Shown in pieces: positions 26,601 to 61,579 of a DNA stretch of 64,000 nucleotides (its first letter is position 1; each line of letters begins with the position of its first letter). This stretch comes from Opisthocomus hoazin. Its lineage: Eukaryota; Chordata; Aves; Opisthocomiformes; Opisthocomidae. The notes below the pieces were generated by a model that did not search any database, was not told the DNA's origin, and saw only the letters and a program-made list of their open reading frames with translations. The DNA lies in assembly GCF_030867145.1 (NCBI RefSeq), contig NC_134429.1:18647115-18711114 (forward strand), in the 5' to 3' direction. The translations under genes were made by a program, and so were the position numbers.

Positions 26601-29600
26601 GGATGGATAACAGTACAGGATATAAAGTATATCGGCTTTTATGTCTTTCTTATCTACTAGAAAAAAACCACTTTTTTTCCAGAATTACATACATCAGAGA
26701 GAATTTCTTCTTTTTCTACATCTGGAGCTGTAAGGGTGCCAGGTCCCCCAAAGACAACAGTCACAGTAAAATTCCCTTGGTTTGGGGACATCGTCCTACT
26801 ACAAAGGCCACAACTTCTTGTGTCATAGACACTGTAAATGTAAGAGAAGCTTATTGCCATTTCTGCTCCTACATTTTTGACTTACCAAAAAATCAAATGG
26901 CAATCCTGTACCTGCAGTCTTCTCAACTAGTTTTCAAAAAAACTGAGCATATGAAGAATGTCTTAAGGCTAACATATATTCTTGAAAGCTTGTGGAATGA
27001 GGCAGCTCTGCATACAACAAATACACAACTGTCTACAAGCAGGAGAAAAAGCACCATTTCTTAAGTTTCTGCTTGCAACCATCCTTTGTGAAAGTAACAG
27101 AGGAATGAATGTGCTGGACAGGGTTTTCAACTTGTACTTGATTCTCCCATAGGTTACTGAAGATGGAAGAATTCTTCCCACAATCTTTTCGCCTGGACTT
27201 AAAAGATGAGAGAAACGCCTTTTTTGAGCTTTACAAAGGTGAATTATCTTAATCATGGTGGCAACCAATTTAAATAGCTATGTGATCCTCTAAAATGTTC
27301 ATAAAAGTACACACAGTGATAATAATTGATACCTATATGCATGTGTATGTATATGCATACGCACACGTTCAAGTGAGCAGTTCTCAGAGCCCACTAATGG
27401 GCACATCAGCATTTCATACCACACACTTTACTGTAACAGACTTATTCTCTCTGCAGAAGAACAGATTTGGATCTGCAAACCAAGTTGCTCTAACCAAGGT
27501 CGAGGAATTTTCCTGCTTAAAAATCCAGCTGCTGTCAACACCCTTCAAGCCGAGCTCCACAGCACTGAGGAATACCGACTCAGTAAGAAGGTGCTACACA
27601 AGGTTCCCCAGGCAAGAATCGTGCAAAGGTAGAGACTGAAGCCTGGGAATTAATGTGTGAGTTGTGTGCTTCATTAAGCACGCTGGCCTCAGAGAGCTGA
27701 ATTGTTCCATAGCTATTTAATGTGGTTACACCGCATCTCATCAGCCTGGGAGATTTCATTTTGTGGGAGAGGGGCTATTTCTCTGGTTAGTCTGTCTTGC
27801 ATCTGCACCTCAGTCATTTCAAGGTAGATCTTTGTCATCAGAAAGATTTGAGTTTATCTTTGTCTGCAAATTTAAGAATGACTTCAGAAAGCCAGATGCT
27901 ACAGCTCTGTACATGAATGCTATACACCAAACCTTGTGCAAAGCAATTTAAATTAGGTATTATCCCAGCTTCTTATACAAAGCTAGCATTTTACAAATGG
28001 TAAAGCTACATTATCTGTTCCATACAATCTATTAAAGCCTCACAAATATCTTCCTCACTCTGCCTCAATGCTGCAAAAGTCTATACCTCAATCATCAGGC
28101 AGTAGCTAGCAGTCATTAAAATATTTGGTTTGGGTTGTTCGGTTTTATTTTTTATTCCTTACATGAGTAAAAGAACCACAAAGGTGGTTCTTTGTAGAAT
28201 ATATACCCTCTCAGCCACTGCTAGAACATTTCGTAGAGTGGCAGAACAACATAAAAAGGAAGGGAAAAATAAGGCGGCAGAAATCATGGGAACAGTTTCA
28301 GCTACTGAACATTACCTGCTTAGTCTTACACAACTCACTTGACTGCCCTTCGCCTCAGCGTCCCTCCCGCAATTGAGGAATGCATTATAATTAAATTACT
28401 TCAGTGCTTTGAGATGACTGAATAAAACTTTCAGAGAAATGCAAAAAAGATGTTTTCATTATTTATCCTAGGAGCTGCAGTTCCCAGCTGCCTTTGACAC
28501 CGCTTTTGGTGTGCACAGCTAGGCACACAGGGCACTCAGAACTTCAAGGTGCCCACACATGCATGACATTGCCTGGCATCATCATGAGGTGTCAGCAATG
28601 ACAATGTGATACACTCCTGTCTACGCTGTAGTATTGGCATGGCAAAACCACGTTCTGCCATGTAGTGATCACTGCACGTCCTGGCAAAGTGATGGTACCA
28701 ATTCCGCACGCTGGCCCTGTGCCACTGCCCTGACATTCTGCCTTGGCATCTGTATCTTGCAAGAGAACACAGCGCACAGCAACCTTTCCAAGAGCTGCCC
28801 TAGCCAAAGCAAGCAATATTCTCCGCTTACATCCATCCAAACATTTATTTTCATAACAAAGGAATGGCTGGCCTCATTGAAAAGGCTACAGGAGATTTGT
28901 AAAATGGCAAACTGGAATGATGATGTTACTGGCTTTCTGCAATAGGCTGGACTGTGTTTATGCAGCAGCCGGTATGTGGAGCAGAACAACAGCCACCTGA
29001 CCGTGTCAGACCAAGGGCCTTAGACCAATCTGTGGTCTTTGGCATGCACAAGCAGCAGTGCTGGGGGAAGAAGTGGTTGGACCCTATCTTAGATCTCATC
29101 TTGATTCCTATTAGCATGGCTTATGCTCTGAAGGATGAAGCTCGATACTACTTTGAAAACTGTTGCTAGCATTGATTGTTTTAACAGCATATCCTTGTTA
29201 TTTCTGTAGACATGCAGCAACCTTTGATGATAAACGCAAACAATTCCCAGATCACATCGCTCTGGCAATAAAACCAGTGGTGCTGCATGAAGGGCTCTTT
29301 GTGTTCAGACATACACTTTGTATATTATCCAATAAATATTAGTAAATCTTTAATTACCTCCCGCTCTGAGACTCGAACAGCTTCTCGCCCTCTCAAAAGG
29401 AGCTGTTCTTGGCATTTCCAACCTCTCCTGCAGGCGCCCTCTGCTGCCATCCACCTTAAAACCGGTGCTGGAAAAAGGGACAAAGAGACCAGTTCTGTTG
29501 TGTGCGACGAACTGGCTGTGGGGCTTTGCGTGAGCTTTGAATCGCCGTGTACTATGGCTGCTTGTTAGTGACGCGTGTTGAAATACTTCTCTGACAGGTA

Positions 29601-32600
29601 TATTCACCAGCCTCTGCTCCTGGAAGGGAAGAAGTTCGATGTCCGCTCTTACCTCCTCATCGCCTGCACTGCACCGTACGTGTTGCTCTTTGCCCAGGGT
29701 TACGTCCGGTTGACCTGTGTCAATTACGACGCGGCTTCTGATGATCTGACGGTTCATCTGACCAACCAGGTAAACTCAGGTCCCTCAGGGCCGAAGAAGG
29801 GAGGGGTGGTTGACAGAGACGGGAAGCAAAAAAGACTTTTGAAAGGCTAAAAATAAACGTCTCATGCATGCAAAATCGCTGCACCAAGGAAACGGATGCA
29901 GGCTTATGGTCAGGCGTAGCAACAAGGCTGAACAGAACCAGCACCAGACCAGGTTCTGTTGTCTGCCACGGACCAGTTCTCTGCTTAACCTGACTATTTC
30001 TTTCCCTGGACCTCTTACTCCTGCCATTATTCTCTCATGTATCTGTAGACTATAAGCTTCCTAAGGCAAGAAGCTTTTGATTGCAGCTACCTAGCACAAA
30101 GAAGCCTTAATCTTGGCTAAGGATTTTGTTGATTTTCTTGTGCTTAAACACAACAATCCTAACGATGTAAGATGCAGATGTGTTCTTCAAGAGCCATCAT
30201 TCCAAAATCTCCATCTTTGCTTGTCTTGCTCCTCAAACAAGACATAAATAGATATATTTAAAAGACTGCTCTGACTTGTATCCCCATACCTCATCACACA
30301 AAATAGAAGCCTGCCTTGCTCAGATCTACCTGTGATTTTGCTTCAAATAAGGCCCTTCGGTAGTTAGAATGTGCCCTGATGAAAGAAGATTAAAAGAATC
30401 AGAAGGAATGAAACAGTTTGCTTTTAAAGCCCTTCTCTCCTTCCAGTGTCACAGTGTGCTCTGAGAACCAGCAAAATACACATCAGAGAGGTATCAGACA
30501 AGCCCACTTCAGCTGGAGTTTTACGGTTCCTGTAGCAGCGCAGCAGATGATAGCTGCTTCCTGCAATATATGCTATTATCAGTATGCCACTTGTTTCCCT
30601 GGACTAGCTTGTTTGCTGAGCTAGAGAGCTATCCACATGGGAATTCAGGTGCTGGGGTAGGATCCCATGGCACAAGTAACATTAAACAAAGGACAGGTGT
30701 TTATTAGCAGAAGGTAAATTATCTGGGTTCCTGCTGGGAGGAGGGAAACAGAATTTACAGGAGCGGCTGGTAACAGGCCAGACTTCTTCAAATTATAGTT
30801 GATTCCGCTCTCATTCCCTTCCTACCCTTTCATTCCACCTGGAATCAGCCATTTTCCTACTGTATTTCCAAAAGACACGAGGCAGCAGAGACAGCATCAC
30901 CAACCAGAAGCTTTGCAGCCTCACAGAAACTGTCCCACTGCAGTTGCAGCAAAGCCCAGCCATCTCAGAGGGAAAGGGGACTTGCCTTTGACTGAAAAAT
31001 GTAACTACCCCATTAGTGATAAAGTCCAGCTGATGCAGGATTAATGAGACCGTGGAAGGGAGAAGCCCTCACCTGGGTTTCCTCTGGTGATACATCCATA
31101 CGCCTCTCCCAGATGTGCTCTCCTCTAGGAGAGTACTAGGCAGATAGACACTGGAAACAGATTTAGTCCAAAGAATATCATGACCATGACTTGAAAGCAC
31201 CTCTCCCTGTCTGCCAGCCACTGCTCCAGACGTATCATACACACACAGGCAGAGAGAACACACCGCTTTGACAGCGACCTTGGGCAATTGTCTCTACAAC
31301 GCCCACGTGGGTCAGGCACGTTTCTGCCTCTGGCAGTGCTGTACACCATGGGAGTCAGCCCATTTGCTCTGGTGCAGCTCTGCTAGCGAGGGGCCCTATT
31401 CCCTCCACCTCTATAACTTGATCCTGGGGTTCTTCCCAACTCCAGATGCCTGGAACAACTCGGGGTAGAGTTGGATGCCTGCCACGCAAGTCGGTTCCCA
31501 GTTACTCTTCACTGCCAGAAATCTAATCCTCCCTTTGCTCTGTTTCCCCACCTCGCAGTACATGCAGAAGAAGAACTCCCTGTACAGCCAGCTGAAAGAT
31601 GAGACAGTTTGGTGGATGGAGCACTTCAACAGCTACGTTAATGAGAAGTTCAGAAAAACCAATGGCCTCCCCAAAGACTGGGTTTTCACTGTGTTTACTG
31701 TGAGTGCAAGCAAGTGTACGGTGTGCTAGCCTGCCTAATTAGGGTGACAGGAATAGGGAGAAAACCCATCAGTTCACTGGAGCCTCCAAGGAAAACACAT
31801 ACACCAAGTGAGAAGGTATTGATGGTCCCTTGGTAATCATTTATCTGCAGATGCTAAACACAGAAGTGAAGACACAAAGCATTTAATTCTAATAAAATGG
31901 GTAAAGAGCTGAAAAATAGAGTGTGAATGTAAATGCTAGCTACAGAACCGCAATTATGGCCTTCACGTTCCTGGCCCAATGCTGTGGTCACGCATTAAAA
32001 AATAAAGTACACATTAGAGAGCTCTCCAGCCTGACAGGTCTTAGCCTGAAAAGGGACTTCACTTCCAGTGGTCTCTTTCTTGTCTGACTTGGTCTCACCC
32101 TTCACTTTCCTTTTCTGATTTTGCCACATGAAAATCATGTCAGGGCCTTAGATCTTATCACGGAGGAGAGATAACAAGACTCAGCTGGCTTGATTTCTTA
32201 CCATCTTCCTGTCTCATTGAAGAAGCAAAGTGAAGAAACGGTCTGAGTCCCTGAGACTTCTTTTCATCAGCCTGAGTCTAATGATGCATCAGTTCCTCAC
32301 ACGACTTGCTGAGGTGAAAAAGGGAAGAGAACACAGCTTTCCCAGCTTAATTTTGGAAATGCTGTAGTTTAAAGCCAAATACAAAGAAAATTAAAAAGCT
32401 AAAAACTTTGTTAAAATATGCTTTTGTTTAGAAAAGCAGCTCAGAAGCAAGTCTAGTTGAATTTGTCAAGTTTCTCAGGGGATCAGAAACTTTTCAGCCA
32501 ACTTTATGGTAACTCTCTGCATGCAGAGATTCCCCACTATGCAGTTCAGCTCCACACCGAGTGAAACTGAGCATCACCTACTGCAAGGCTTCTTTATAAC

Positions 32601-35600
32601 ACTGAAGGGGGTTGTGTCGCCACTGTCAGAAATGCCTGTGTTCAGCTCACATCTAGGTGTCCCCATAGGAGTAAATGAAAGAACACCACTAAAAATTCCA
32701 GACAGCTCATTCTGAGTAAGGGACAAGGGCCACGATTCCTTCATGCACCAGCGCAGCAGTCTGAAGAATCAAGTTCAAGAGAGCGTTTCAATCAACTCAA
32801 AGTGGACAGATGTACGGTCTGCAAAATGCAACAGCCTTCCAAGTCTAGAGAGGAGCTGTGCTGGAGGCAGGAGAAGAAAAAAATGTCCCTAAACCTAGAG
32901 GACACCTATGACTTACAGTGACTCCTATGCCCTTGGCATTCACAAGGACGAGTTACAACCGTTCCCTGTCTTCTCTTTCAGAAAAGGATGCAGCAGATCA
33001 TGTTGCAGTGCTTCCTGGCAGCCAAGTACAAACTGGATCGCAAACTGGGCTACTTTGATCTTATCGGCTGTGACTTTTTAATCGACGAAAACTTTAAGGT
33101 ACAAACGCAATATCGTCAAACGCCAAGTATGATATTGTCCAGCACGGTTGAGACAGGCTCTGGTGCTAGGAATTAAATAGAGCATTTAGTCAGTCAGCTG
33201 TGAAGCTCAGGATTCATTTTTTCTCCGCTTCCACTATCCAGCATCAAGACATGGCACCTGTCTTGCCTGCACAATTATTGCACAATGAAACCCTAGCGTT
33301 AACAGCTCAGGGTGGAAAGAAAAGTACTCATTGCAGCTGAAACTGTTCCGTGCAGAATTTACACAGGAAAGCCGAGCTCACAGTGAGAAGTATGGGAATT
33401 TTAATGCCCACTCAGTTTGTCCTTTCTCCAGAAACCAAACATGCCAGATGATCAGCCAGATAAACCAGCGTGTAATGCCTCTAACATCACATGAAGCATA
33501 CTGATTTACACTAGCCGGGTATCCATCAAAGGCAACAAAGAACTTGCCCTCACCATTCTGAAGAATCAGTCGTTATTGATTCGGATGTCGGCATCAGCAT
33601 CTCCATGTTCACTGTAGGTTCACCATTTAGCAACAGGTCAGCCCACTGAGTCTAATAAAATCTGCTAGAATTACAACTCAAACTTGTAAAGAGTGAATGA
33701 AACAGAGACAAGGAAAGCCAGAAGAAAGGGAAATGTTCAATACAGTGTTTGAGGTGCTTTCAACGCAGCACCTGGCCTAAACATAACAGAAAGCCATCTG
33801 GCAGATTCTGCTATTGCTAAAGCAGAAAGGAACTCAAACATATTCCAGCAAAGGGCAGTGGGAACAGCAAACCCTATGAAAGAACGGAATTAATGTATGC
33901 AGCAGTGGGTAAGGCACCCGAACAATAGCCGCCTTTGTACAGGAAGTCAATGGCACAGGAGAGTAAATGGCAAAGACATAGAAACTGGTGCTTCTCACAT
34001 TTCAGTGGGAATTGTCTTTTGCAACGTTGGCATGCAAAGTCCTGGCTGTGTAAACTTTAAGTAGAATAGAAGATCCAGTATCACTCTATTGTGGTAATTC
34101 CTACTTGGCTAGTTAAAAACTTCAACATATGGGGAGATAAACAAAATCTGTTTCTTGAATCGTATTATCTGTAAGAATCAGGAGGATTTCTGGACCCTTA
34201 GTGGTGACAGAGTCACTTGGAACCTGGAACTTCCCTTTGAGAGAGATTAGTGTGGAAATTTAGGCATTTATTTAGCATATTATTAGGTTTGTCCACGATT
34301 TCCTGCTGCTGCTGGGGAGCACCAAGTACTGGTGCAGTGCTGCATCAAGCGACACCCGCACGCTCCCTGCAGATGCAGCGTACCACAGCCGGACGCAGCA
34401 CTGACAGCTTCAACCCACAGTTAACACAGGTCGGCGCAGCAAACTCCCACTTTTCTGTGGGCTGACATTACAATTCCTGGTCTGACATCATGTCCTCTCC
34501 ACCTAGAGTGCACAGCAGCCTTATTCTCCGTCATTCTATTTCACAACACGTGTAGAATCTGCTTTATGCCGATTTAACACAGTCTTATGTGTTCAGTCCT
34601 ATAGCTCATCCCGTCTATCCCTTCCTTATTTGTCTGAGATACAAATGCCCCCAGCATCGTTCCTAATAATTCTTGAAGGCCCTGCAACATCCCGATTCAG
34701 TCTTTGGAAGGTGTTTTTCCTGCCTCAGAGTTCTCAGAAGCACAGACGATGAAAGCAGGGCCTGCTGAGAAACCACAGCTTTCTGTAGGGCTTTGCATAT
34801 TCATCTGTAAGCTGAAATAAGGATGAAGCACTTTAAGAAGAGAGGGAGCAAAAGTGACGGATGTGGTTTTGCTGCTGCTGGCTTTTTTCTTACTGTTTTC
34901 TGGAGCTTCCTTGTGCTGCACTGTAAATGCCTACGTCACTACACAGCTTAGGACAGTGCCATTTCAATGCCCAAGGAACCTGTTTTCAGAAAGCATTGCG
35001 CCAGCCGTGCAAAAGGGCTTCTCTCCAGAGGTGTGCTGGGAAGGCAGATGTGTAAATTTTTTATCAGCCATAAAGGGATTCAGCTATCTGTCAGCAGAGA
35101 ACAGGCTGAACTTAGATAAGCCACTTGCCAATTTGTGATAGATGTACATAAATGCAGATAACACTCCAATCCTTCGTTAAAGCAGAGACGGTTCCTTTGA
35201 TTTGAATGACATAGCTTTGCATTCACCCTGGGAGAATGAGGTACCACAAGGATACTGTAGACTTGGTTGTGCACACCCCAGGTCACAATGATAAAAAAAA
35301 TATGAGAAAAACTTGTTAAGACTGTGGAAAATGTAACCTCACTGCCTTAGCCTGTGGTCTCCACTATTAGTAAGTGGGTCCCGTTCTGGGTCAGCAATAT
35401 TGGAACAGCCCTTCCAGTGCTTGGTTTGTGACTGTGCACGTGGCTTCCGCTATGTCCACACAGGACACAGACCAAGCTATTTTATTCCTGTTTCTGACTG
35501 GTATGTCAGTGCTGCTTAGAGCTCCGGCCAGAGGTCAGGCTCCCTGGACACCTGCTGCTACACAAATGCAGAACAAGATGGTCCTGTTGTGGATAGCTTT

Positions 35601-38600
35601 GGGCTTTACAGCATCTGACAGCCATCCTCTCTAACAACAAGTTCTGATGTAGTGAGATGTACACATTCCCATTCAGTCTTGGCTACCACATCACTTGGAG
35701 CCTCTGGGAGAATGGTCTGATGTCCTCTTCCCTTCCTGAGACACCAGCAGGATGTTTAGCTTCCACCTGTCAAGCTCCAGCAAAGACCCACACAATTAAA
35801 TAAACTAAATGCTTTTTTATCAGAAACAGAACAGAACTTTGTCTCCAACATGCGTTTCCTGCACACTAAAAAGTCTTACCTCTGCCTGTGTTGGCAGGGA
35901 AAGGAGCTTTCAGACAGGTCTTATGCCGTCTGTTAGCCACCATGTCAACACGTGACAGCACCTAGTCTCATCATCCAACGCTCCTTCGAAAGACATTGAA
36001 CTGCTGCTGTAAGGATGGTTCTACAGCAATGAGACTACAATAGTAATCAAACTAGATGAAAATAAAAAGTATTCAGCAGAGGCTAATATTGCACCTAGCG
36101 CTATACAAAGCAGAAGAAATGAGACCTCAGATCCTCTTGTAATGCAGGATCTGGCTGCAATCAGCATGTTGTTCAAGAACCTATGGCCAAATCCAACTAC
36201 TTAAAGTTTTTAAGCCTACCTGCGATGTCTTGACAGAGCAAGTTTAAGGTGTGACAGAACAATGAGTTGTACTGGCAGGCTGCAGGGAGCTGTAAGCTCT
36301 TCATCCCTGAGAAACATCCACAGCAGCACTTCCAACAAAAGCCACGGCGCACTCATCGCTGCTCTCATCCCTTGAAAAGCCTGAAGAAAAAGGATGGTTC
36401 ATGGTTAGGAAGTCAAGGACAGCCATTCCGGGTTTTGGTTTCCTTTCTTTGTCATATGTCTGCTAGGAAATTTTGAGCACGGCACGCGCATGTCAGATGC
36501 AGGGAGCAGCACGGGAATTTCATTCTACATGAAATTCCCACGAAAGGTATGGATACTCACACAGATATGGTGAATCTTGGCCTTATTCTCTCTGCTCTTC
36601 ATGAACTAGAACAAAGGGCATTTATTAACTTGCCCTGGTTGCTGAGAGGTTAAGGGCATTTAAAAGCTGCGAGACATTCAGACAGTACGATAATGGGGTC
36701 GTAGAAGATGAACAGCAAGATAGATGTCACAGAGAACTTTCTGCCTCCTGTTTGTCAGCTTTATTCGTTTCAAAGGAGAAGAAACCAAAACCTAATCAAG
36801 ACAATTACGAAGGTTCATCGAGCTTGTCTGTCAGCACAAAATCTTATGAACTTTTAATAGGAAAAAGAATACTTACGAGTTACCAAGAAAAACGTATGTA
36901 ACTTCTGTGCCCTCTATTGGCATCTGCAAAGCAGGCTTTTCTGAGGAGCTGCTCCAGTTATTCTCTGAAAAAAAAAAAGATATTTCACTGCCCTCCCTTA
37001 CCAGTCATCTGTTTAGTAAACTACTTCAAAGTAGTGAAAATTATTATTTTATTTTATTCTCAGAAAAATAAAATGCCAAAGTGAAGGCTACTGTGTCACC
37101 AAAATCTACCAAACACTTTGACTTCATTTCACAGGTACTTGCAAGCAAATTCTTTGCTGCTTCAGGAAAAAAATTTAAATTATTTTAAAAAATCAATTAA
37201 AAGGGAGTAAAATTCTCCTGGGTCTGTTACATGATTAAATATTCTTCCCTACAAAATGCCAAATAGTTCCTATATGTGTTATCCACAAGATGCAGCACCA
37301 TATGGTGGAGGCAGGAAGCGAACAGATGAGTTTCTCTCACTACAGGGAAAACAAACAGTAAATAGAATTACATGCAAGTCAATTGTTTGGTTTCACACAG
37401 ACTTCTAACTGGACTACCACATTCTGTGGCTTGTAGCTTCAGATGCTGGCACTTCAAAGGGAAACGGAGATGAGACTAGTACAGACATGAGAAATTAGGA
37501 TCTTACATGGCTTCTATCTGCAACGAAAGCTTACCCAGGAAATCAAGGCCAAGGGTTCATTGAAAAATCAGTACCATGTTTGCTTAGTTTTGATCCCACG
37601 TGCACCTGAACTCAAAATGGTTCCTAGATTCCTTATAACTTTACTTCACGGTATCCAAAAAACTGAACTAGAAACCGTTACGGAAACTGGTATATTAAGA
37701 AACACAGTGCCTTTGCACATCTATAGAGCAAGAGTTAATCTAAAGAGCATCAGTTAGAGACACAAAATAATGTGTAGTGTTGTTCTGAAGTAACTAAATG
37801 TAAGCAAAAAGGGATTTTGTTTAGTTCATCCAGCCCTCATGAAGATTCTGTTCTGCCTGCATTCTGTGTTACGGGATTTTGTGGGATTTATCAGTAGCCC
37901 TGCCTCTCAAGGCGTTCACAAAAGGGCCTTGCTCTGACTCTCAGGAGATCCAGTCTCATTTCCTGATGGGCCACCTTCTCTCCTAGGTCTGGCTTCTGGA
38001 GATGAACGCAAACCCAGCACTGCACACCAACTGCAAAGTCTTGCAAGATGTCATCCCAGCTGTGGTCTATGAGAGTCTTGGTAAGTGAACAAGTCACAGG
38101 ATGGCCAGCAGCAGCTGGTCACATCATTCCACTGCTTGTCCAAGGAAAGACTCCTGTTTATACCAGTTGCAGGTCCAAACCAATCTTTGAATAAAGATCT
38201 CTCACTGCTGAGCTTATAAGCAACTTAGCAGGCACGGAAAATTCTAATTCACGCAGACCTAGAAAAGCTATGGTCTTTTTAGTCATGCACCCATTAAAAA
38301 GAAATAAGTGATTACATTTTTTTTTAGTTATAATTGTTTTTAAGAGTGCTTTCTTATATATTCATGTATAAAAGGCTAAATCTTAATACATGACTCTACA
38401 AGCTGCACCTGCACGTTTTTCTCATGCTTGTTGTTCTCAATGTGCAGGAGTTTAAGCTGGTTTGCACAGCGTGGCTCACACAGCCCTGGCAGTGCTTAAA
38501 TGCCAGCGCAGCCCACTGACTTCACTAATACAGCTGGCAACTGGCACAGGAACTACACAAAGACTGAAAAAATCCTTACGAAGTCTGATATACGTTAACT

Positions 38601-40275: not shown

Positions 40276-43200
40276 ATGGGATGCTGCAGCCTCAGCGCCA
40301 GGCAGGCTGGCTCTGCAGGAGCAGGCCAGGACGAGGTGGAGCTGCTGAAGACAGCCAGGACCAGGTAGGCAGCCATGCTGAGGGCACAAGAAAAAAGCCA
40401 GTCAGCTCCACTCAAACAGAAAGACATTTGGTGCTTGAAACTGAAACTCAGTAGCTGTATCTCCTTTCCAAATATGAATCCCTTAAAAGCTTTCTCTTCT
40501 TCTCTTCTTCTAGCCAGAATTTAGAATCATGCTAAGTGTCAGATTCATCTAATCTTCTGACTAGAGGCTGTTTACTTCTCCTCAATACATCCCCCCAGGT
40601 GTCGCAGTCTTTTAAGATCCAGGGTCAGCATTTGAGCAACCGAAGGTGGAAGGTGGAAGCATTCCTTCCTGCCTCGGATGTAACTCTCTCTGGTTTGGGC
40701 GGGCAATCACAACTAACTCCTGGGGCCCTGGCAAGCACCACTCATGTTTTGTCAGAAATGGGTGTTCTCAATCCAACTGTCACATGTCAAAGACAGATTG
40801 GAGGTCTGAAAAGAAGCTCAGGAGGCCTTTAGTCCTCCTTCCACCTCTGGAGCAGCCTCGGCTCTTCCTAAATCTTGCTTGACAGATGCTTGTGTAACCT
40901 GTCCTTGAAAACCCCCAGTGAGGAAGGTTCTGCAACGTCCCAGGCAAGCCATTGTTTCTTCCTAACAGCTAACCTTTAATGCAGGTAAGGCCGTTGTCTC
41001 CATCTTACTCACCACTAACAAAAAGAAAAAAAATGTTCCACTCTTCTTTCTAGTGGTCTTTTCCATATGTGAAGACTGATACCACACCACCTCAGTATTC
41101 CTTACTTTACACCAAGTGTTGAGCTACATTAACAAGAGTGCCTTCATCCTGCCTACACTCTTTCCTATGTAATGCCTGTGGAAAATCAGGAGTCTAAGTG
41201 CTTTCTTGAATTTAGGACCTAGTCTCTGCTTAATGTGAGGGGACATCTAGTGGTATGTTCCCCCGAAGTTAGCTGTGTTACTCCTTGATATGCCTGCTTT
41301 CTGATTCTGCATCTGCTGCATTTTTTTTCCCTAGAGTTCACTGAGCGGTTATCACCCAATATTCCTGTTGAAAACAGCATATTCTAAAATGCATCAAGTT
41401 GATGCCAGAAATCCTTAAATTTGTCCGCTCGCTGAGCATTACTCACTCTCTCTCCTTTAAAAATTCAACTCATGTAAGTGCTTTCTTATGCCTCTCCAAG
41501 TTCCCTTCCATTTCAGAACGTGGTCCAACTCAGAAGGCCAGAGTGAGGCATCCCTCCATTTTAAGGACCCTGCAATCCTAGCAGAAACAGAAGATGTGAG
41601 TATGAGCAGGGTCATGCAAGCAAAGATTTGTATGTAGAATCAAGGAAGACATCAGAGGCCTATTTATGTCACCCACCATGGCATTATCCTGACGCAGTAT
41701 CCCATTACAGCAAAGTGCCAGAGGCTATGGCACACCCTTTGCTCTGAAATCAAATAATCAAGTTATCTCTGTTTTGAGGTTCAGGTGTAGGTTTTCAACT
41801 TTTGTTCTACAAACTCACATGCAAGAAAGTTTGTCATCACAAGTCAGTTTTGGTTTTTTTCTGGGGACAATGTTTTATCACCATTGTTGAGAGAAGATGC
41901 TCAGAGAGGGGAAGGGATCTATGCAACTTCACATATATGGGTCAACTTCCAAATTTCACCTTGGCTGGTCTGCAAAACCCCCCTTCTCTCTTTTAGCTAG
42001 TGTTAGAAATCATTATCATATGGCTCTCACTACCATTTTTCCACCTCTAACTGTCTTACTTTACAGGATATTCCTGGTAAGATTACCAGAAGAAATGCAT
42101 GCTAACATCTGTGTGTTTCAGACAGAAGTATTGTGGGGAAGAACACAGGAGGAATTAGCGAACTTGTTGATCACGCAGCCTATCAGCGGCTGGGAAGGGA
42201 TGAACATCCACTCTCTTGGGGAAATTATTTGGTCCTCCCTGGTTTTTCTGAGAAGTTATTGCATGGAGGTAATCATCCTCTTAGTATAACCACTGAGTAA
42301 TAGGCAAGGGGTAAGGTGGGGGTAAATTTCGATTTCATACATCCTGTCAAACTCCTGCAAAACCCCAGGGCTTGACTGAAGATACAGTTTGTCCGGACCT
42401 TTGTTTTCAAGAGTTAATGGTAATATGTTCCACTTTTTTTACCAGTGCCAGCAAAAGCTGAATGGAGTTCATAGCCACTTCCTTGAGCAGCGTGAATCTT
42501 TTCATTCACTCCCTGGGGAAAAAAAACCTGTTGTTTTTTTTTTCCCAGAAGTTTCTTACATTCTTTTTCCCAAAGAGATAAGGACCGGTTATTATAGTTG
42601 CAAATTTCTATGTGTAACAATCAAGCCCTCTCCACGTGTACTGGTGGTGACTGGTAAATCTAATGCAGTGTGACTGCCATTACCCTGGTTTTGATGAGGT
42701 CAGAAGAGGGAAATGAGATCTAGTCTAACTTTGCCATGGATTCACGTCTCTAACTGCACATCACTCTATCTGGCCACATACACACAAGTAAAACCTCCCC
42801 ATCTCACAGGAATGCCATGGTCTATGCGTCAAGAGAGGATATAGTGATCATTTAAGGAAAGATGACATAAAATTACAAAGGACTGACATAAAGTTTCAGT
42901 CAACTGTGACCCAGTGCAAGCCAGTCCAGCAGTTAAACACTGCATAGTTCCCAGTTACCAACCAGTCACTAAGCATGACAGCCTGTCAGCACTGGCTGCA
43001 CATAAAGATGCACCGAGTACTGCATCAGCAGAAAGGAAGGGAAGGTGAAGAGCTTTGAAGAAATATAATTTCCTTTTTTTTTTTAAAAAATGGAAACATT
43101 TTGGAGGAAAGATATAACTGATCTTATTTCAACAGGAGATGTGTGAACGCTACATTGTGCTGTCCTCCTCTCACTTGCTGATTCTTTCAGTGGATCGTAC

Positions 43201-46200
43201 AAAGAAGGCACTTGTTTATGAGGTAAAGCGCAAGAAACCTTTTGTCTGTTGTATCCGTGTCCATATTCAAGATTTCCTAAATGTCTCTGTACTCATAGCT
43301 CGAGCATGTACAAAATGAGTACCTACACTCAGTGCCCTGCGAAGAGGAAGGCTCAGGATGGAGCAAACATGCAGGTCCCATCAGCCAAGACAGAGACATT
43401 TCACTGGGTTCAGTGGAGCTTTGTTGCGTAGCACAGTAGCTCACAATTCTCCTTTTTTCAGCATAATTTGAACACAGAAGTGAGTCTGCTCCAGGGATTG
43501 AAAAGGAAGTGCCAGTTTGCATTTATATGCCTACTTCTATAGATCTATAGTGTTAGCTGGCCTCTTATCACCCAATTTGTTTACCCACGGAGAGGGATTG
43601 CAACTCCATACGAGTGAGCTAAGCAAACAAGGCATCAACCAGGAGGTGTCGAAAGAAAGTTATACGAACAGGAGATTACAGGAGAGAGAGTTAGGAAAGG
43701 TATATCGGGGGACAGATAGGGTGTACCAAGGAGAGACATATCCAGAAGAGCTGCCTTCAGCACAGCACTGTCTCCTGATGGCTCTCTCTGGTGCATCTCT
43801 GTGGATCCTAAATGTGAGGAAACAAAATGAGCCAAACTAGAAAACTCGTAACTACAGAAAGCAGGTCCTGGGTCTGTATAACACTGGAGTCGATAAAGAT
43901 CTAAGTCCCTCCATCGGTTAAGGCTGGCAGTGTAAGAGGACACAGAAAAGAAATCATCCGTTTATGAAATATAGGATCCAAAAACTGGGGCCTCTGTCCT
44001 GAACATGAATGTGGTCTTCTAGCGTGGTTTGGGGCATGGGGCAGGAATTCAAGAGAGGGAAGCTGCAAGGCAGATTAAATCCTATCTAATTCAAAGTACT
44101 TTTCAACACCAGCCTTGGTCTATTGGTGGAGCTCACTCCTACATCTCAGAGCACTTCATGAAGGAGGAGAGTCATTTTATGGGTAGGGAAACATGAATAA
44201 ACCCCTGATTTCCTGAGTCTTCAGACAATGAGCTGAATGCCATCCCACCCAGACTTCCTTCAACTCAAAGGTTCGCAGGATGGGAAATTCTTTAGCCTGG
44301 CTTGCAGAAAAGCGTTCTGCTGTAGATCAGAGGGACCACAGCAGGACACAGTTGTCATTACCAAACAATTTCTAACGCAATTCCCTACCACACCAGGGTC
44401 TCCTTCCTCTTGCTGGGATGCATCTGAGAGAAATTGCGAGTGCCATCAGCCACACATTTGAAATTTCTGGTAAGCCTGTTCTGCAGCTCCTGAAGGGGCC
44501 TGTGATAGTCTTAAAGCAGCAATACCTATGCTCTAGCCTTCAGGGACTGGCCCACGTGGCTAGAAGGTGAGAGGGGTTACACAGCCATGCAGAGGACTGC
44601 TGAAGAAGGGATATGCCTCCTCTCCAACATCCAGCCATGCTGGAGAACAGCCATGCCTTTCAGGACTGGACTCTCACCTGCAGCATACACTACAGTTGCA
44701 CAGAGAGATGAGGCACAGCTAGATGGAAGGAATTCGGAATATTAGTTTTTACAGGTGGACACAACTGCTGCACAGCCTTAAACCAAGAATGCCTTAGGGT
44801 TAACTAGAATTCCTCACATGCAAGGCAATATAAATTACAGGTTTCCCTTTGCTCTAATTTTCTACTGAAATTAAACAGTAGGCAAATACTGCTGTCTGCA
44901 TGTAGAGGAAGCCACCTAACTGTCCCAGAGCCAACCCAGTATCCGCCATCAGGAACAACTCAAGACAGACACAAGCTTGTTTCATCATGAGATATCAAAG
45001 CACAGGAGGAACATGGCTATAGGGATAATCGATTGAGTGAAGGGGCATCACACAGAGTTCACCCGTTTGGCTCAAAGGTGGCTCGCAATCGTCCTTCCTC
45101 AGACCCAGCGGCTGTACATTTCTTTGCACAGGGTCCATGATAGAATCCAGGCTCATCTGCTGCCAGAATTCAGCTGACTTTGACATGTGGGTTCACCACC
45201 TCCAGCACCAAATCAAGGTGGCAAATGTTCACTGCCCAGTCAGACCCAACAATATCATCTCTTTTCTGGTGAGTCAGTGCCTAAGAGGTGTAAAGGGAAT
45301 GGGATGAGAACAGGGAACAGTGGCAGCTTTGAAATCAGACAGGGTTTTTCAGGGATTCTTGGAATGCAGGGTGGAAATGAACAGCAGTATTTCCTGAGGA
45401 TGCTGCTGTAGGCTATGGTAAGTAAACTTGCTACACACAATTTTGCAACTGCTACTCTGTGCTCATGAGAGATTTTTAGAAAAATTCCTGATCGTTTTTT
45501 TTCCTGGGACGTAACTACTACACAGGCAAAAAAAATTAAAAAAAAAAAAAAAATCAAATTTCCTCTTAGTTAGTGTCACAAAATAAAGCCTTTTGGATAC
45601 ATGCAGACTGTCACACCCGTGGCAGCGCACACTGCACCATCCCGCAGGGTCACAAGATGGCAGGATTACACTGCCACTGAAAACACCCAGGCAGCGGGGC
45701 CTCAGGGATTCCACCACCCGTCCTCCCAAAGCTTGAGCCCATGTGGTGCTATGCTCAGATTCCTAAGGGTAAGGGTAAACTCGAAAGCCAGCCTGTCTTT
45801 CCTGCCCCCAGTTCTGCTAAGGTTTCCCCTTTTTTTAAATACTCGCTCTGCTGTCCTTGATGTCCAGCATGGCATAGACTGCAGGGCAACACTGTGCCTT
45901 AGCTGTGCCTAACAGCATGCTTGTCTTCAGTTTGGGAGGAGAAAGTACAACCCAGAGCACCCATCCTTAAGAGATGCTGATTTCTGATGTTCCCTGCAGT
46001 TCACATAATTGTTTGTAGCTAGTGGATATAAGATAATTTTATAGTAGTTACCCCAGGTGGTCCTGCTCTAAGGATTCAACGTAGATTGCACAAATCCATC
46101 CAGGACCCAGCACAGCCCTGGACACCAGGAGCCCACACTGAACCCCACTCCCGTCAGCTGGACAGCACTGCTTTGAAGGAAAAGGAAAACATCCCCTAAT

Positions 46201-49150
46201 AAAGGGACTTCAATGCCAAGCTCAAAGTGCTTCGAGCTAAGGGGAAATACTAATTCAAATGAAACCACAGTCTCAGCCAACCTCTTCTGAGGGGGGAGAA
46301 GGAAACTGAAACCTTTCCATTTTAACAGCTAAAGCTGTTTGGTTGTGTCTGCTGCTGCTCATGAAACCACAGTACAGACAATTTTGTTCAAGTAGGTTGG
46401 AAACCTACAGCAAACTAGGAACTCCACCAGAGGGCTGGGACCCCTCTGCTGTGAGGACAGGCTGAGAGAGTTGGGGCTGTCCAGCCTGGAGAGGAGAAGG
46501 CTCCAGGGAGAGCTTACTGCGGCCTTTCAGTACTTAAAGGGGGCTTGTAAGAAAGACAGGGTCAAATATTTTTATCAGGGCCTGTTGCAACAGGACAAGG
46601 GGGAATGGTTTTAAACCAAAAGAGGGGAGATTTAGACTGGATATAAGGAATGACTAGATGGCCTTTAAAGGGTCCCTTCCAACCCAAACTATGATTCTAT
46701 ACCTTAAATACTTTCTTTTACCACCCAATAACCCTGAAAAACACCATACTTGTAGTTTTATCTCATTTGGTTCTGTTTAAAAACAAAATAAGGTGCCATG
46801 TGATGAACAGTGGAAGAAAAGGGAGCTGATGAGACATCTGTTGTGCAATACCATTCTGAAGTGGGAAGGAAAACCTATTCAGCATCTGGGAAGGATACAG
46901 TATTTGATGATGGTGCAAGTGGCTAGTAGCTGCATGGAGGTAATGTACAATGTATACTGCTCTGACATGTGGGTGGCTTTAACATGACTGGAACCAGTGA
47001 AAGTTTAGGCTCGTGTGGAACTGTTGCTTAAAGAAACAGACCAAAAAAAAAAAAAAGGCCAATTATGTCAAAAACTCACAGTATTAAAGAGATAAAAGGA
47101 AATGCAGTTGTATTTCTGAAAGCTGCTTCTGACAACGTGTCCAGAGTTGCACTCAGTTTCCAAGGGAGTAGAGCTGGGAGGGATAGTCCACCCCTTCCCA
47201 ATCACACAGCAAGATCAACATTTTCTAAACATCTCCTTGCAGATGTGTACCTCACCTATTCTAAAAAAACCTCACCACTTTGTGATATTGTGTCAGCTTT
47301 CTAAGCAATGAATAGCCAACCTGAATAAGAAATACAAAGAATAGTAGCTGTGGCTGGCACAGGAGCAACTGGGTGCTGCAGACAGTTTTAAGTTTTGGTG
47401 TATTGTCATAGTCATTAAACTTCATATTCTGCCTGTGACTGAGTGGAATTTATTGAAGGTTTTTACTGTCTCTAAGATGCTTCTTTTCCACAGGACTCTG
47501 AGGAAAGACTGTTGATCCTGTTTCCAGAAGACTTGCTTTTCCTCTCTGTGGATAAGGACAGAACTGCGTTCACATACAAGGTAACAGAGGAACTACAGGA
47601 AATGGTCAAGTAAATGAAGAACTAAAAGGAGCTGGAGCTAGTGACCTACACTGGGTGATGAAAATGTTTGAATAGCAAGGAGAAAAGGGAGGAGGCAAAG
47701 GAAAAACACCTTTTTTGTTTTCTTCTTTGAAGGGAAAACTCCCCCTAACTGGAATCCAGGCAAAGGAGAAATCTGCTATGCTGGGGAGGCTACAGTTTGA
47801 AATTACAGGTATGTAACTGTGAAAGAAAGATGACAGCAATGAAACACAGGAGCTTCTCTCTGAACACAAGGAAACAGTTTTATACTGTGAGGGTGACTGA
47901 GCACTGGGACAGGTTGCTCAAAGAGGATGGGGAGTCTCCAACCTTAGAGATACTCAAAAGCCATCTGGGCATGCTCCTGGGCAACCAGCTCTGGGTGGCC
48001 CTGCTTGAGCAGGAGAGTTGGACCAGGTGACCTCCAGAGGTCCCTTCCAACTTCAACCATTTTGTGAATCTAACGACAAACTGCTTAGGCTTGCCGTGAG
48101 GATGGGTGATCTTGTGAAGTTGTCTTCCCACACGGGACAGTCCTCGTGACTTTCCTTGCCATAGGCTAATAAACTGTGTGTCACAGCAAACTTTGCACAC
48201 TTTTCCATCACCAAACCATTCCGTGCTAATGTCTTGCAGGAAGCCTGACAGAACCACTCCTTATTACCTGTTCCACGGCAGAGGATTATGAAAAATGCCT
48301 CTTCTACCTACAGAAGGTATTTTTCAGAGAGCTTTACTGCAGCAATATCTCTTTTCAAGCCTGGGATTTTCCTAGCCATAGGTTCACCTAAGATGTATCA
48401 TCACCCTCCCAACTTTTCTCCTCCTTTTCCACAAAAGACTCACCTGAGTAGGGAGTTTTCTTTAAGCCTATTGTTCTCCTGATAAGACTCATCCATTTGG
48501 CCAGTAAAATATCAGTAGGTAATCAAAAATAGAAAAACACTATCAGCAGGGGTTGAATTTGGGTCCTCTCAGGCAAAATACCTACCTACTCTAGAAGTGA
48601 AAGACTGATACCTAAGCACTCAACTTGCACTGATTTTAATGGAAATTACATACTGAAATAAGTAGAACTACTGAGGGGAGGAAGCAGGCCATTGGACTCT
48701 ATTTTATTAAGCTAGAGAGACCCATTCTCTCACACTGCCTCCTAAAATACCCACGATTGCACCAACAGCTTATGACCTGGTTCCCTGTAAGTTAAATCCA
48801 TGCAAACAGGAGCTAGTTTCAAGTAGGTCCTTCAAAATTTGACCTTATCTAGGTTCTAGCTTTCAATCATTTTTCATTGGCCAGCACATATTGCACACCC
48901 TACAAAAGGGATAACCCTGTCTGGGTTCAGAGAAGAGAAAGGTGAACCAGAAGTGGATGTCTTAAAAGCAGAAGACATCTGGGGCTCCGAGCATTTATTA
49001 ATCAATGTGGCTATTCTATAGTTGAGCATGGCTACGTTTATCTATGTTTCACGTGCTGAAAATGTGTTCCAGCCAGAGAAAATCCTTGATCCTCTGACTC
49101 TGCTGCCACCACCACCGACCATCCCTAAGAAATCCCGACAACATCAGTAG
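40276..49150 (+). CDS. PLEKHN1-like protein with two PH-like domains, 11 exons
   Basis: Exons chain by GT-AG and phase: 40276-40364, 41517-41595, 42122-42268, 43136-43222, 44397-44469, 45132-45268, 46793-46939, 47494-47580, 47733-47808, 48240-48316 and 49073-49150 (TAG). They sum to 1077 nt, 358 residues. The N-terminus MGCCSLSAR suits myristoylation at Gly2 and palmitoylation at Cys3-Cys4. The two PH-like units span about residues 83-189 and 231-333. Each has WEG..I..LG.I, then a strand ending in SVD, then GLLPL or GKLPL, then F.I.G.., ending W/C..HLQ or YLQK. The same order, including GLLPL and a C-terminal DRW/DYGHW helix, is what I recall of human PLEKHN1 (CLPABP), which binds cardiolipin and phosphatidic acid. 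The protein is about half the length of human PLEKHN1 and lacks its long Ser-rich tail. The acceptor at 46792 is weak but is supported by phase and by its paired exon. The start and last exon are less sure than the middle. Confidence 0.82.
40840..41000 (-). mobile_element. Old CR1-like remnant, doubtful
   Basis: TGTAACCTGTCCTTGAAAAC, then CCCCCAGTGAGGAAGGTTCT and CAGGCAAGCCATTGTTTC resemble an old reversed CR1 segment. It lies in intron 1 of the PLEKHN1-like gene. Divergence is high, so the family call is tentative. Confidence 0.5.
42122..45268 (+). other. First PH-like exon cassette of the PLEKHN1-like gene
   Basis: Four exons of 147, 87, 73 and 137 nt with phases 0, 0, 1, 0 code the first PH-like unit. 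Key pieces are GWEGMNIHSLGEI (exon 42122-42268), SSSHLLILSVDR (43136-43222), GLLPLAGMHLREI and HTFEISG (44397-44469), and LICCQNSADFDMWVHHLQ (45132-45268). The last exon runs on for about 20 residues as the linker to the second unit. Confidence 0.82.
45538..45553 (+). repeat. A16 homopolymer in PLEKHN1-like intron 6
   Basis: A run of 16 A is preceded by another A-rich stretch (45528-45540). It could be a retroposon tail, but no body is recognisable upstream. Confidence 0.85.
46428..46703 (+). mobile_element. CR1 fragment in PLEKHN1-like intron 6
   Basis: It contains GGACAGGCTGAGAGAGTTGG, CCAGCCTGGAGAGGAGAAGG, CCTTTCAGTACTTAAAGG, TTTAGACTGGATATAAGG and the tail AACCCAAACTATGATTCTAT. This is a CR1 3' region with an internal gap between the GGATATAAGG and GGCCTTTAAAGG parts. 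Confidence 0.92.
46793..48316 (+). other. Second PH-like exon cassette of the PLEKHN1-like gene
   Basis: Four exons of 147, 87, 76 and 77 nt repeat the first cassette in order and phase. Pieces are KWEGKPIQHLGRI, LILFPEDLLFLSVDKDR, GKLPLTGI with LQFEITG, and LLITCSTAEDYEKCLFYLQK. Exons one and two equal their partners in length exactly, and exon three differs by one codon. CR1 pieces lie in the intron before the cassette and in its third intron. Confidence 0.82.
47848..48070 (+). mobile_element. CR1 fragment in PLEKHN1-like intron 9
   Basis: It contains CTGAACACAAGGAAACAGTT, GAGGGTGACTGAGCACTGG, GACAGGTTGCTCAAAGAGG and TGACCTCCAGAGGTCCCTTC, the CR1 3' region in sense with the host gene. It fills most of the 430-bp intron 47809-48239 yet leaves both splice sites clear. 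Confidence 0.9.
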
Positions 49151-49431: not shown

Positions 49432-49437
49432 AATAAA
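49432..49437 (+). terminator. Polyadenylation signal of the short PLEKHN1-like isoform
   Basis: AATAAA lies about 280 bases after the TAG at 49148-49150. It fits the 358-residue model, but this hexamer also occurs by chance in AT-rich DNA. Confidence 0.45.
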
Positions 49438-56240: not shown

Positions 56241-59200
56241 TCACTGTAGACTCTGTGGGTGGAAAAAACAAGGCTTTTCTTCTGGTGTTTTGCCTCCATG
56301 TTCTTCTTCTGGAAACTGGCAGCTGTAAGTCTCTTCTCTATGGTGTGACAGTTGTGAAGCCACCGGCAGCCTAGGGAAGTTATGTTCCAGATCTGCAGTG
56401 AGAATAAGCAAAAGCACTGCACATACAAGAGGTCTTCACACATCTCAGTTAGCTGCCCATTACCTTTACCAACACAGCCTGTCTCTGAGGAAAGGACAAA
56501 GATGCAGGCGATGCACTGCATCTTAGTGAAACTAAGTAACCCACCCAAAATCACAAAATAAGCCCATACTGACTCTATTCATTTAGCTTAATTTATTCCA
56601 TTCTGATTCTGGATGAACAGACACAATGTTCACCACTGAAAAGCTACACAAAGGCATGCTTACCGTCAGCTGTGTGGTATTTTTCTCTCTTCAGTGACCA
56701 TATGCAGAAATGCAAGAAGAAAGTCAGCAAGATGAGAACAAATACAGCCACTGCAGTAAGGATGGCCAGGATGGTGGTATAGAGAGAGTCATTTGTAATA
56801 GGAGCTGCAATTAAATACACTTCGTAAAGATTCAGAAATCATGTGCCCAGACTATTGTTAAAGGAAAGGCAGTTCTTTCAAGGAAAACTAGAGATTAAAT
56901 TCCTCTTTCTGTGGAAAATAATTTTCCAAGGAAAAAAAAAACCAGTGCGGATACTAACAATAAAACTGAGTGCTCGAAGTCAAGGGTGCACTAGATCACC
57001 GCCTGTGGTAAGAAGCATTCAAGCAAAGAACCCACACGCGTCTGATCTCTTCATCGCTCAATGTCTCTCTTGCAGCTATCACTTGTTCTGCCTACACTGT
57101 TTTGGTTTTTGCTTTCTGGGAGGATTTGGCTTCAATGTTTCCCTGAATAGCACTGCAGGAAGCCAAATTTTCACGCCTGTGTCTGCCTCATTGAAGTTAA
57201 AAGTAGCACATTTTTGCAATTTGTCTCAGCAGAACAATACTGAATGAAGGGCCCAGACCTGAAAGGCACCAATTCATTGTAGGAACAAGGGTGGGGGCAA
57301 AGGCAGGAGCAGTGCAGCTTGCTGTCTTCAAGATACTCTGTACCTGCAAAGCCTGTGCCCACCTACTCCTATCTAACTGGATCCATGATAAGACATTAGA
57401 TTTCAATTCTGTGCGTTGTGGACTCCACCAATACTTGTTAAGGAATTGGATGACTAACTAAGCTACTGTCTTCCTAAGAAAATCTAGCAAAACAGCAAGA
57501 GCAGTTCAATGGAAAACTCTGACAATTTGCCAAATAAGCGTGCTCTATTCAAGGACAATTGTCAGGCTTTTCTCTACCTTTATTACTGACATTGCTTTAA
57601 TGGTGGAATCTTTGCCCAGGTCAACAATTCTACCTGTATTAATACTTCCAGAAACACAATAATTTTCAAAGCAAATTCTCATGATAGCAAGCTCTGGATG
57701 ATAACTATGCAGCAAGTCACCAGCTGAAGAAATGCAGAGAAAAGCTATAGGCTCAAAGAAATAAACCATTGTGAGACAGTACCTTGCTCCATATCTTTTG
57801 GAGGGAAACCACAGACTGCATTATGCGTACTGTTGCCTCGCTTGATTGTTAAAAGCCCAGAACTTTCACATCTAAAAGAAGAATAAGAGTCACATTTAGA
57901 ACGTCCCTGCCTTTCCCATCATTCCTCTCCAGCCTTTCTCTTGGCTCCCTTTCTTCCTTCCCTCTGCTCTTTCCACAACTTGTTTCCTTTTTTTTCCATT
58001 TTATAGCAGTGCAGGTAAAGTTACAGCTGTTCCCCGACAAGATAACACTACATGACAATTGTTTATGTGCACACTTTTTCTAGTCCCTTTGTTTCAAGTG
58101 ATGTCCATGTTTGGAATAATTTTGTATCAGTCTGAGCGGGACTTGGAAGCAAGTTGAATACACAGCAGTTTGTCTTTGGATCTGCTCTGAGACCGACTAT
58201 TTATCAAGCCAAAGGAGAGTACAATATCACAGTGATGAATTTTAAAAATTCAGCATTTAATCTCATTGGTGATATCATCTTTGACTCAGTTTTATTTTCT
58301 AATTTAAGTCTTAATAATTTGAGAATTTTTACATGCATATTCCCAAAGAAGGAAAGTATCATTAAATACATACTCGGTCCAGTTACGACACCAGCCATTC
58401 TTAACATCGGAATAGGTTCCTATCTTACATGGTTTACATTTGAATGTGAAGTCTAAAATGCCTACAAGAAAAGAGAACATGAATTATTAGTGATCAGTGC
58501 CTTTACTGAAAGATGGGGATGTAACAGATTCGAGCAGAACGCATTCCCTCCACACTCTTTCTGCATTAGGAATCACCCCCCTGGAGAAACACGTAATTGG
58601 TTCTTGCCACCTTTGCGTTTGGGAAAGGTATGGGCGGACCCCTTGTAGAAGAGGTACAGAATAGTCTGGTCTGGCAGCAGAGGGTGTAAAGTGAAGAGGC
58701 AATACAGAGTAAAACAGCATTCTACTGACAGTTCTAGCAGCTTGGAAGAAAAGTAATGAAAGTCTAAGCACGAAAGTGAAAGACTCAAATTTAGGAGGGG
58801 AGGAGTTATAAAACAGGAAAGCAAGAGTTTTAGTCAGAGGCCACAGTATAAAGGCCACTTCTCTCTGCATCACGAGCCTTCCCAAAAACAGGTTATAGTA
58901 AGTGAAGGAAACTGTCTGCTGCTCAGCCAGGCACTTCTATTGAATTCTGTCTTTTAGAGTCGTTTGTGTTTGTTTATTTACCAAGCTTAACCAGCTCCTC
59001 GCCCTCTGCACATTCAGGCAGTTTGCTGCAGTAGTGACATGCACTGTCAGTACAGCTGTATCCCTGACGACATTTGCAGTCAATGTCCTCAGTATTTTGA
59101 CACGCGCCGTTGTCTCCTGTCAAGAAGAAAGAAGTTAGACTTGCCTTTGTCACAGAGGCCAGAAATTAACTTAACCATTAGTCTTACTTGCTGTGGTGGA

Positions 59201-61470
59201 AAAAATGGGTACTAGAAAGATGGCACTCCCATACATACTGGATAAAGTTTACTCAAATTCAGTACCTCTCAGATTTTTACACTACAGTTATCTGAGCACT
59301 GCATGACTTACCACTGTAACCCTTCTCTCTTATCTGGAATACCAGTGTAGGTCGTGGCACACAGAAGTAAGGTGGCAGGTTTGCTTTACTACATTGCGCA
59401 GATTTAGACACTGTGGGGTGAGGAGGGTACTGCCAGTGCCCCAAAGCAGCACTACACATTACCCAGCCATCCAGGCAGCTCTCAGGACACTGCCACAGCT
59501 CTTCTCAGTTAGACTCAGCCATGTTAGAGGAGGGATGCCCAAAAGTTCCTTGGCCAGTGAAGCTAGGGCTCCTTTTCCATGCCTTTCCTAACAACAGCAG
59601 CTGCTTCCTACACTCTGGTGGCAGAACTGGGTCTAAATCCAAGCCATAAAACCAACACCCTTTCTATCCTCTTTCCTTCTATTTCTAGAGGAGTTCTGTT
59701 GTGAACTTTGCTTGCACTCAAAAAATGTCATCTCTAATTCTGAGAGGCTCCTGGGTTCATGACAGCAAAGGATTGAGCATATATACTGATCCCATCAGAA
59801 AACAGTATCAAGCAGTCCTTCAGGCAGTTGGAGACCAGTTAGAGGAAAAGTGCTGTTCAACCAGGAAGCTGTATAACCTTAAAGCAAAAAAAATACAGAG
59901 TGAAATGCTGGCTAGTTCAATAGCGTGCTTAGAAACCCAGAGCGAGTAGCAAAGATCAACCAAAGATTATTTCCTGAGGCTGGTGATGGAATGTACAGGG
60001 CCACCAGTGAACTGCCCACATCTTCCTCTGCCCACTGGCCTCCTCTTACTGGCCTTCAAAACTTCATGATGTCTGGCAGCACAAAGGAAATAGCGTGGGG
60101 ATGCTTCTTTCTGTGTATTACTAGTGTGCGATTCTGGAGCTGATCCCACCAAGCAGTGACTCTCCTACCTCCTGCTGAGTTACTTTATCTCAGTGGGAAG
60201 GGAAATACCCTGGGGTCTCCACACTAATGAGGACTCTATGGCTTTTCACCTATTTATTGCTCATTCCTGCAAATCCCATGTGACCATGCGCTCCTTCCAC
60301 AGGGAACTCTGTGCCCTTGTTGTTGGTTGAGGCTGATATATTGAAGTTACTAATAGGTGGGAGGCTGACTCCTACCCAGGCACCAACAAAAGATGTAACT
60401 TCTCAGCTAACCCTGTTGCTAACCTGCGGCACAACAGCACTCGCATCCTAGCTACACAAGGCTTCCAGCAACCCTGTTTCAGGACAAACTGAAAAGGAAG
60501 GTGTTATGGACAGCACTAATTTAGGAAGAATTGTATGATTGCTCCTGGGACCATGAAAGAGACTATTAGAATCACCTGTTCTGTCCCTCAGCCTAACAGG
60601 CACAGCAATGTCGCCCACTAAATCCTGCTGCTAGCCTGTGCCACCTTTAAGGCCTTAATTTGAGTTAAAATCACAGGGAAGTGAGAATTCATTACCATCT
60701 CGCCACCATCCCAAGATCAGGCAAGGTTACAGGTTAGAACAGGCTGTTGAAACCAATCATCTCTCGAGACCTTGTCTCTGCATTTACTTCTGGGACAAGC
60801 CCAGGTCAGTGGAATGGAGGGACTGAAGCGGGATGCTTCCCACCCTTTAGGACCACCAATTGCAAAGAACAGCCTTACAGAGAGCATCACTCCCTGTATC
60901 CCCGCTGAAGTCTGAATGGCACAGACAAACTTTGAAACCATGTTTTGTGAATCAGTGTTAAGTGAACACCTGCTTTCCTTGTGAGCAAGACCAACCCACA
61001 GGAACTTCGCTTTCTCTTTCCCACTGCAGAAACTTCGCTTTCTCTTTCCTACTACAGAATAACACACACAAGCACATAAACTGAAACATGAGTCCACTCC
61101 AAAGTTCACAGCTCAGGGGCATTATGAATTCAGGGGCCAGGAGGGAAGTCCTTGCCATTTTGTTTTGCATATACGGTTACTCAAGACACATTTACATAAA
61201 CACACACACACCTGCCTGTTCCCCACACCTGATTACCCTGGCTGACATAAAACAATATTGACAAACAGAAAGAAGACAGGCACATAACTCCTTACCGGTC
61301 TTTGAGATGCACTTGGGGCAGCATTTCTTTTCGCCTTTACCTATTATTCTCAGTTCACCATCCTGGCACGGTGTGGCCAGAGTTTGCTGTGTCCATGGCC
61401 ATAGGCAGACCACCAGCAGCAAGCAAGCTTGAATCCTGAGGTGCCTGGCTTCGCTTGGCTGTTCAGTCAT
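56241..61470 (-). CDS. TNFRSF18: TNFRSF18 (GITR), TNF receptor superfamily member 18, six exons
   Basis: GITR is a costimulatory type I membrane receptor of regulatory and activated T cells; its ligand is TNFSF18. Exons in transcript order are 61296-61470, 58982-59116, 58374-58461, 57783-57871, 56664-56804 and 56241-56392, total 780 nt, 259 residues plus TGA; every phase closes. Residues 1-32 form a signal peptide with core ACLLLVVCLW. Cys-rich repeats follow: CCPKC, DIDCKCRQGYSC, CKPCKIGTYSD, then WTECESSGLLTI and GNSTHNAVCG, the last almost identical to human GNKTHNAVC as I recall it. Potential N-glycosylation sites are N130 and N146. The membrane span is about 171-195. The tail holds YSCQFPEEEHGGKTPEEK (232-249), matching the human GITR TRAF-binding tail. 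ATG 61470 is the only ATG at the frame's start. The neighbours TTLL10 and the facing orientation agree with human order. Confidence 0.96.
61002..61057 (+). repeat. Tandem duplication, 2 x 28 bp, in TNFRSF18 intron 1
   Basis: Units 61002-61029 and 61030-61057 share AACTTCGCTTTCTCTTTCC and end CAG. Each unit looks like a splice acceptor on the plus strand, antisense to the gene. Confidence 0.92.
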
Positions 61471-61579
61471 GTCTTGAGCTATACAACCCAAAAGCACACT
61501 AGAGTGGGCTTGTATCAGAACTTCCCTGCAGAAGTGCTCTCTCCTCTGACACTGTGGGAAGGCACTGTACTTTTTGTGG

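Follow-up and report, generated by a model that had tools for sequence, protein, structure and literature searches.

PLEKHN1 has been described as a protein that binds cardiolipin and phosphatidic acid (PMC5841295), and the human protein is predicted to carry two PH domains in its N-terminal half (PMC5809941). Our literature search found no PLEKHN1 paralog or PLEKHN1-like gene under such names, and a search for work linking ARHGEF6 and ARHGEF7 (the PIX genes) with PLEKHN1 returned nothing beyond an expression data set. In chicken, the SNPs of an eggshell-color GWAS region on chromosome 21 (GGA21) were assigned, in order, to SDF4, TNFRSF4, LOC419425, TTLL10, and MIR429, and SNPs in introns of LOC419425 and TTLL10 lie 1.5 kb apart; the authors of that study found little information on either TTLL10 or LOC419425 (PMC6050282). 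Another chicken study groups TNFRSF18 in a single region with gga-mir-429 and the cluster of that microRNA (PMC11507135).

Here we analyzed a gene on the forward strand of a 64,000-nucleotide stretch of the Opisthocomus hoazin genome (contig NC_134429.1, positions 18,647,115 to 18,711,114), which is referred to below as the window. The initial annotation had proposed a complete 11-exon gene with closed phases, and this model held. The exons span 40276-49150 (+), all 10 introns have GT/AG borders, and the joined frame of 1077 nt encodes 358 amino acids followed by TAG, with no stop or frameshift across its length. Exon sizes range from 73 to 147 nt, as had been claimed. Each of the two PH domains (PH1 and PH2) is encoded by a module of four exons, labeled a to d. 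In the following list, C1 and C14 denote the genome's two PIX loci.

40276-40364 (+): exon 1, with the start codon and an MGCC N-terminus, a possible N-myristoylation/palmitoylation site
41517-41595 (+): exon 2, linker, with an end phase equal to that of PLEKHN1 exon 2
42122-42268 (+): exon 3, PH1 module exon a, 147 nt, equal in length and phase to the PIX exon (147 nt) at C1 and C14
43136-43222 (+): exon 4, PH1 module exon b, 87 nt (87 nt in PIX, 81 nt in PLEKHN1)
44397-44469 (+): exon 5, PH1 module exon c, end phase 1
45132-45268 (+): exon 6, PH1 module exon d, 137 nt (134 or 140 nt in PIX)
46793-46939 (+): exon 7, PH2 module exon a, 147 nt, with an acceptor that lacks a pyrimidine tract
47494-47580 (+): exon 8, PH2 module exon b, 87 nt
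47733-47808 (+): exon 9, PH2 module exon c, end phase 1
48240-48316 (+): exon 10, PH2 module exon d, short (77 nt)
49073-49150 (+): exon 11, proline-rich tail LLPPPPTIPKKSRQHQ and stop, with a weak acceptor
49432-49437 (+): AATAAA, a candidate poly(A) signal 282 nt 3' of the stop

An in-frame TGA starts 9 bases 5' of the ATG, and exon 1 was the sole ATG-to-donor candidate with the right phase and a donor equally good or better. No CpG island was found at the start of the gene. Exons 1, 2, and 11 stand without homology support; within the part that was searched (exons 1-2), no homolog of exon 2 was found, and exons 1-2 together with the start of exon 3 gave a single match in PDB, at E 1.3. As a contamination check, exons 3-10 (277 residues) were compared with bacterial and viral contigs, which yielded 4 and 5 pattern matches, respectively, and 0 confirmed. 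Two CR1-like repeats lie at 46398-46700 and at about 47850-48080, the first ending ~93 nt 5' of exon 7, whose acceptor is weak.

Splice sites were scored with a matrix built from PLEKHN1 and PIX sites only (18 donors and 17 acceptors). Among 570 local GTs, this scorer ranked all 10 donors of the window gene in the best 13.0%; among 907 local AGs, it ranked 8 of 10 acceptors in the best 18.4%, and the two weak ones belong to exon 7 (92.5%) and exon 11 (67.6%). Because exon 7 is 147 nt long, its skipping would preserve the frame, and the two weak acceptors could reflect in-frame skipping of exon 7 or recent damage to the gene.

The two PH-like units ascribed to the protein were recovered with Pfam, whose PH model (PF00169) matched twice in the 358-residue protein (42.3 bits and E 1.1e-10 for the whole protein, cut-off 25.1); scanned separately, PH1 and PH2 scored 24.0 and 22.9 bits, slightly below that cut-off. 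Against PDB, the sole significant match of PH1 was alphaPIX/ARHGEF6 (1v61, E 1e-19), and the same structure was the best match of PH2 (E 2.4e-15, with four more matches at E 0.7-0.78). When the window protein was searched against its own genome, 14 matches were listed, 11 of them the window gene itself and 3 (E 0.0013, 0.32, and 1.4) at the C1 and C14 loci; among the matches listed, there was no further copy beyond the window gene and the two PIX loci. The PH domain of alphaPIX, searched against the genome, matched four exons each at C1 and C14 (best E 1.2e-6 and 5.4e-9), and its ninth match was the window gene (E 3.7).

Over aligned residues, the PH1 and PH2 domains of the window gene share 34-39% identity with the PIX loci C1 and C14, 31-35% with 1v61, 37% with one another, and 22-28% with a set of four PLEKHN1 domains that includes two from human. 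BLAST with a fixed database size gave E values of 8e-30 for PH1 against PIX C1 and 3e-25 for PH2 against PIX C14, compared with the best PLEKHN1 domain at 5e-12 and 3e-12, respectively; the 9 domains, reversed as a control, produced no match at E<=1. Judged by these sequence comparisons, the PH domains of the window gene are nearer to PIX than to PLEKHN1. With human counterparts excluded, the bird PLEKHN1 domains were also nearest to PIX in BLAST, and the PH part of PLEKHN1 in this genome had alphaPIX as its only PDB match (E 3.6e-13). The initial annotation had called the gene PLEKHN1-like, a description that fits its exon order, phases, and architecture but not its nearest sequences, which are PIX PH domains. 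It had also taken best hits outside the PLEKHN1 family as counting against that description; the best hits are indeed PIX, yet both PH domains of PLEKHN1 in this genome are themselves PIX-type by sequence and exon module.

Identities at codon positions 1/2/3 were 0.52/0.66/0.35 between PH1 and PIX C1 and 0.53/0.63/0.39 between PH2 and PIX C14, the highest of the four window-PIX pairs, across which position 2 ranged from 0.60 to 0.66 and position 3 from 0.30 to 0.39. This pattern, with third positions near saturation and second positions retained, resembles that of a protein long under selection.

The likeness extends to exon structure. The PH modules compared, two each in the window gene and PLEKHN1 and one in each PIX gene, all consist of four exons, and 6 of 6 show the end phases 0,0,1,0. 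The exon lengths are 147/87/73/137 (PH1) and 147/87/76/77 (PH2) in the window gene, 147/87/79/134 (C14) and 147/87/79/140 (C1) in PIX, and 147/81/88/125 and 150/81/70/155 in PLEKHN1 of this genome, the exact sizes of 147 and 87 nt being common to the window gene and PIX. Because the module is in phase 0 at both ends, it can be copied without a frame break. PIX differs from the window gene in carrying DH and SH3 domains, whereas the 358-residue model has neither (a Pfam scan of the model finds PH models only) and sets two PH modules in tandem. We consider it probable that the gene is real and protein-coding, that its 358-residue product is a cytoplasmic adaptor composed of two PIX-type PH modules, that its PH exons come from the ARHGEF6/7 module, and that PLEKHN1 is a cousin assembled from that same module.

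The claim that the gene is distinct from true PLEKHN1 was confirmed by the location of the PLEKHN1 ortholog at C16:18130233-18150152, where 7 of 12 matches of a human PLEKHN1 query were found (best E 3.8e-11). This ortholog is on the same contig and strand as the window gene, and its last matched exon lies ~537 kb (~0.54 Mb) upstream of window exon 1, which rules out that the window locus is PLEKHN1 itself. Exon 2 of PLEKHN1 in this genome ends at a GC donor (AAG/gcaagt). The C-terminal part of human PLEKHN1 is longer than that of the window protein.

The gene had been placed between TTLL10 and TNFRSF18, and the following neighbors were identified in the window.

2729-2797 (+): mir-8/mir-200 family precursor (RF00241, 59.5 bits vs 47), a synteny anchor upstream of TTLL10
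27453-38082 (+): TTL-domain exons (PF03133), TTLL10 by position, at 27453-27539, 29590-29838, and 37984-38082, of which only 29590-29838 is above the cut-off
58321-58470 (-), edges approximate: TNFR cysteine-rich exon of TNFRSF18/TNFRSF9 type, from motif and PDB matches, without a PF00020 match

The TTL-domain hits are consistent with the TTLL10 side of this placement. On the other side, the TNFR-type exon at ~58.4 kb (-) matched TNFRSF9 best in PDB (9.2e-4), with TNFRSF18 at 2.1e-3, and the Pfam TNFR profile (PF00020) found nothing inside the window at E<=10, its two hits ~11 kb past the window being below the cut-off; TNFRSF18 is likely to lie downstream of the window gene in convergent orientation. 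An open frame at 61192-61623 (-) starts like a signal peptide and contains cysteines; as a possible first exon of TNFRSF18, it was searched in PDB and had no TNFR match. In human, TNFRSF18 follows TTLL10 directly, with PLEKHN1 further off on the same chromosome arm. In chicken, LOC419425 resembles the window gene in its position, beside TTLL10 on GGA21 with MIR429, TNFRSF4, and SDF4 near, and from this position it is probably the same gene (PMC6050282). Since the chicken model adjoins TTLL10, the window gene is probably already annotated, and the suggestion that it could easily have escaped annotation is doubtful.

With regard to origin, the account that survives best, to which we give slightly less than an even chance, treats the window gene as a plain PLEKHN1 paralog, derived from an ancestral double-PH gene that was duplicated on this chromosome so that PH1 corresponds to PH1 and PH2 to PH2. 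In the initial annotation, the gene may be an old PLEKHN1 paralog that birds retained and mammals lost. The proximity of the two genes on one contig and strand is consistent with such a duplication, as is their shared layout: in both the window gene and PLEKHN1 (CLPABP), the protein begins with MG, and two short exons with end phases 2 and 0 precede PH1 (89/79 nt in the window gene, 80/100 nt in PLEKHN1), followed by the modules in the same order. However, these N-terminal exons 1-2 show no sequence likeness between the two genes, 1126 of 2000 shuffles scoring equally high. An unrooted maximum-likelihood tree, built on few sites (9 domains, two of them human, and 135 columns), also joins the two PH domains of each gene to one another; its three clusters (aLRT/UFBoot) are window PH1 and PH2 (85.8/81), PLEKHN1 PH1 and PH2 (90.2/87), and PIX (96.5/96). 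The alternative tree, with the PH1s together and the PH2s together, was nevertheless retained by the AU (p 0.197), KH, SH, and ELW tests; bp-RELL (0.0493) excluded it, although the best topology occurred several times in the tree set. A further point against a plain paralog is exon b, which is two codons shorter in both PLEKHN1 modules (81 vs 87 nt) and speaks for duplication or conversion within the gene.

The maximum-likelihood topology and the short exon b shared within PLEKHN1 agree better with a second account, which we hold more tentatively, that the two double-PH genes formed independently, each tandem pair arising from a PIX-type module whose symmetric phases would ease tandem copying. 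Against it, the alternative tree survives the AU test, gene conversion between neighboring modules would yield the same pattern, and the phases of the upstream exons are identical. A scenario that we regard as rather unlikely goes further and makes the PIX PH exons a symmetric mobile module that left its exchange factor and was duplicated in tandem on two independent occasions, one leading to PLEKHN1 and the other to a gene that was kept by birds and is missing in mammals. A decaying pseudogene, its frame still intact through chance or because the loss was recent, would fit the weak acceptors of exons 7 and 11 but is very improbable in view of the 1077 nt without stop or frameshift, the PH homology retained while third codon positions near saturation, and the chicken model at the corresponding place (PMC6050282).

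For the gene product, our best guess from the sequence is a membrane-fixed tandem-PH adaptor made from copied PIX PH exons. Under this reading, the gene would be expressed, and its protein would be anchored to the membrane by lipidation of the MGCC N-terminus, a start that we liken to dual-lipidation motifs. The two PH domains may serve chiefly to bind proteins, with acidic lipids, which PLEKHN1 is reported to bind, as possible further ligands; the proline-rich tail may attract SH3 proteins. Each PH core carries a net charge of -3 over about 100 residues, which makes a classical PIP3 pocket unlikely.

Taken alone, the window gene is an ordinary uncharacterized paralog. Through sequence and exon structure, it ties PLEKHN1 to the PIX exchange factors, and it suggests a product for an uncharacterized chicken gene model in a reported eggshell-color region. 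If mammals lack the gene, it would represent the lineage-specific loss of a signaling adaptor.
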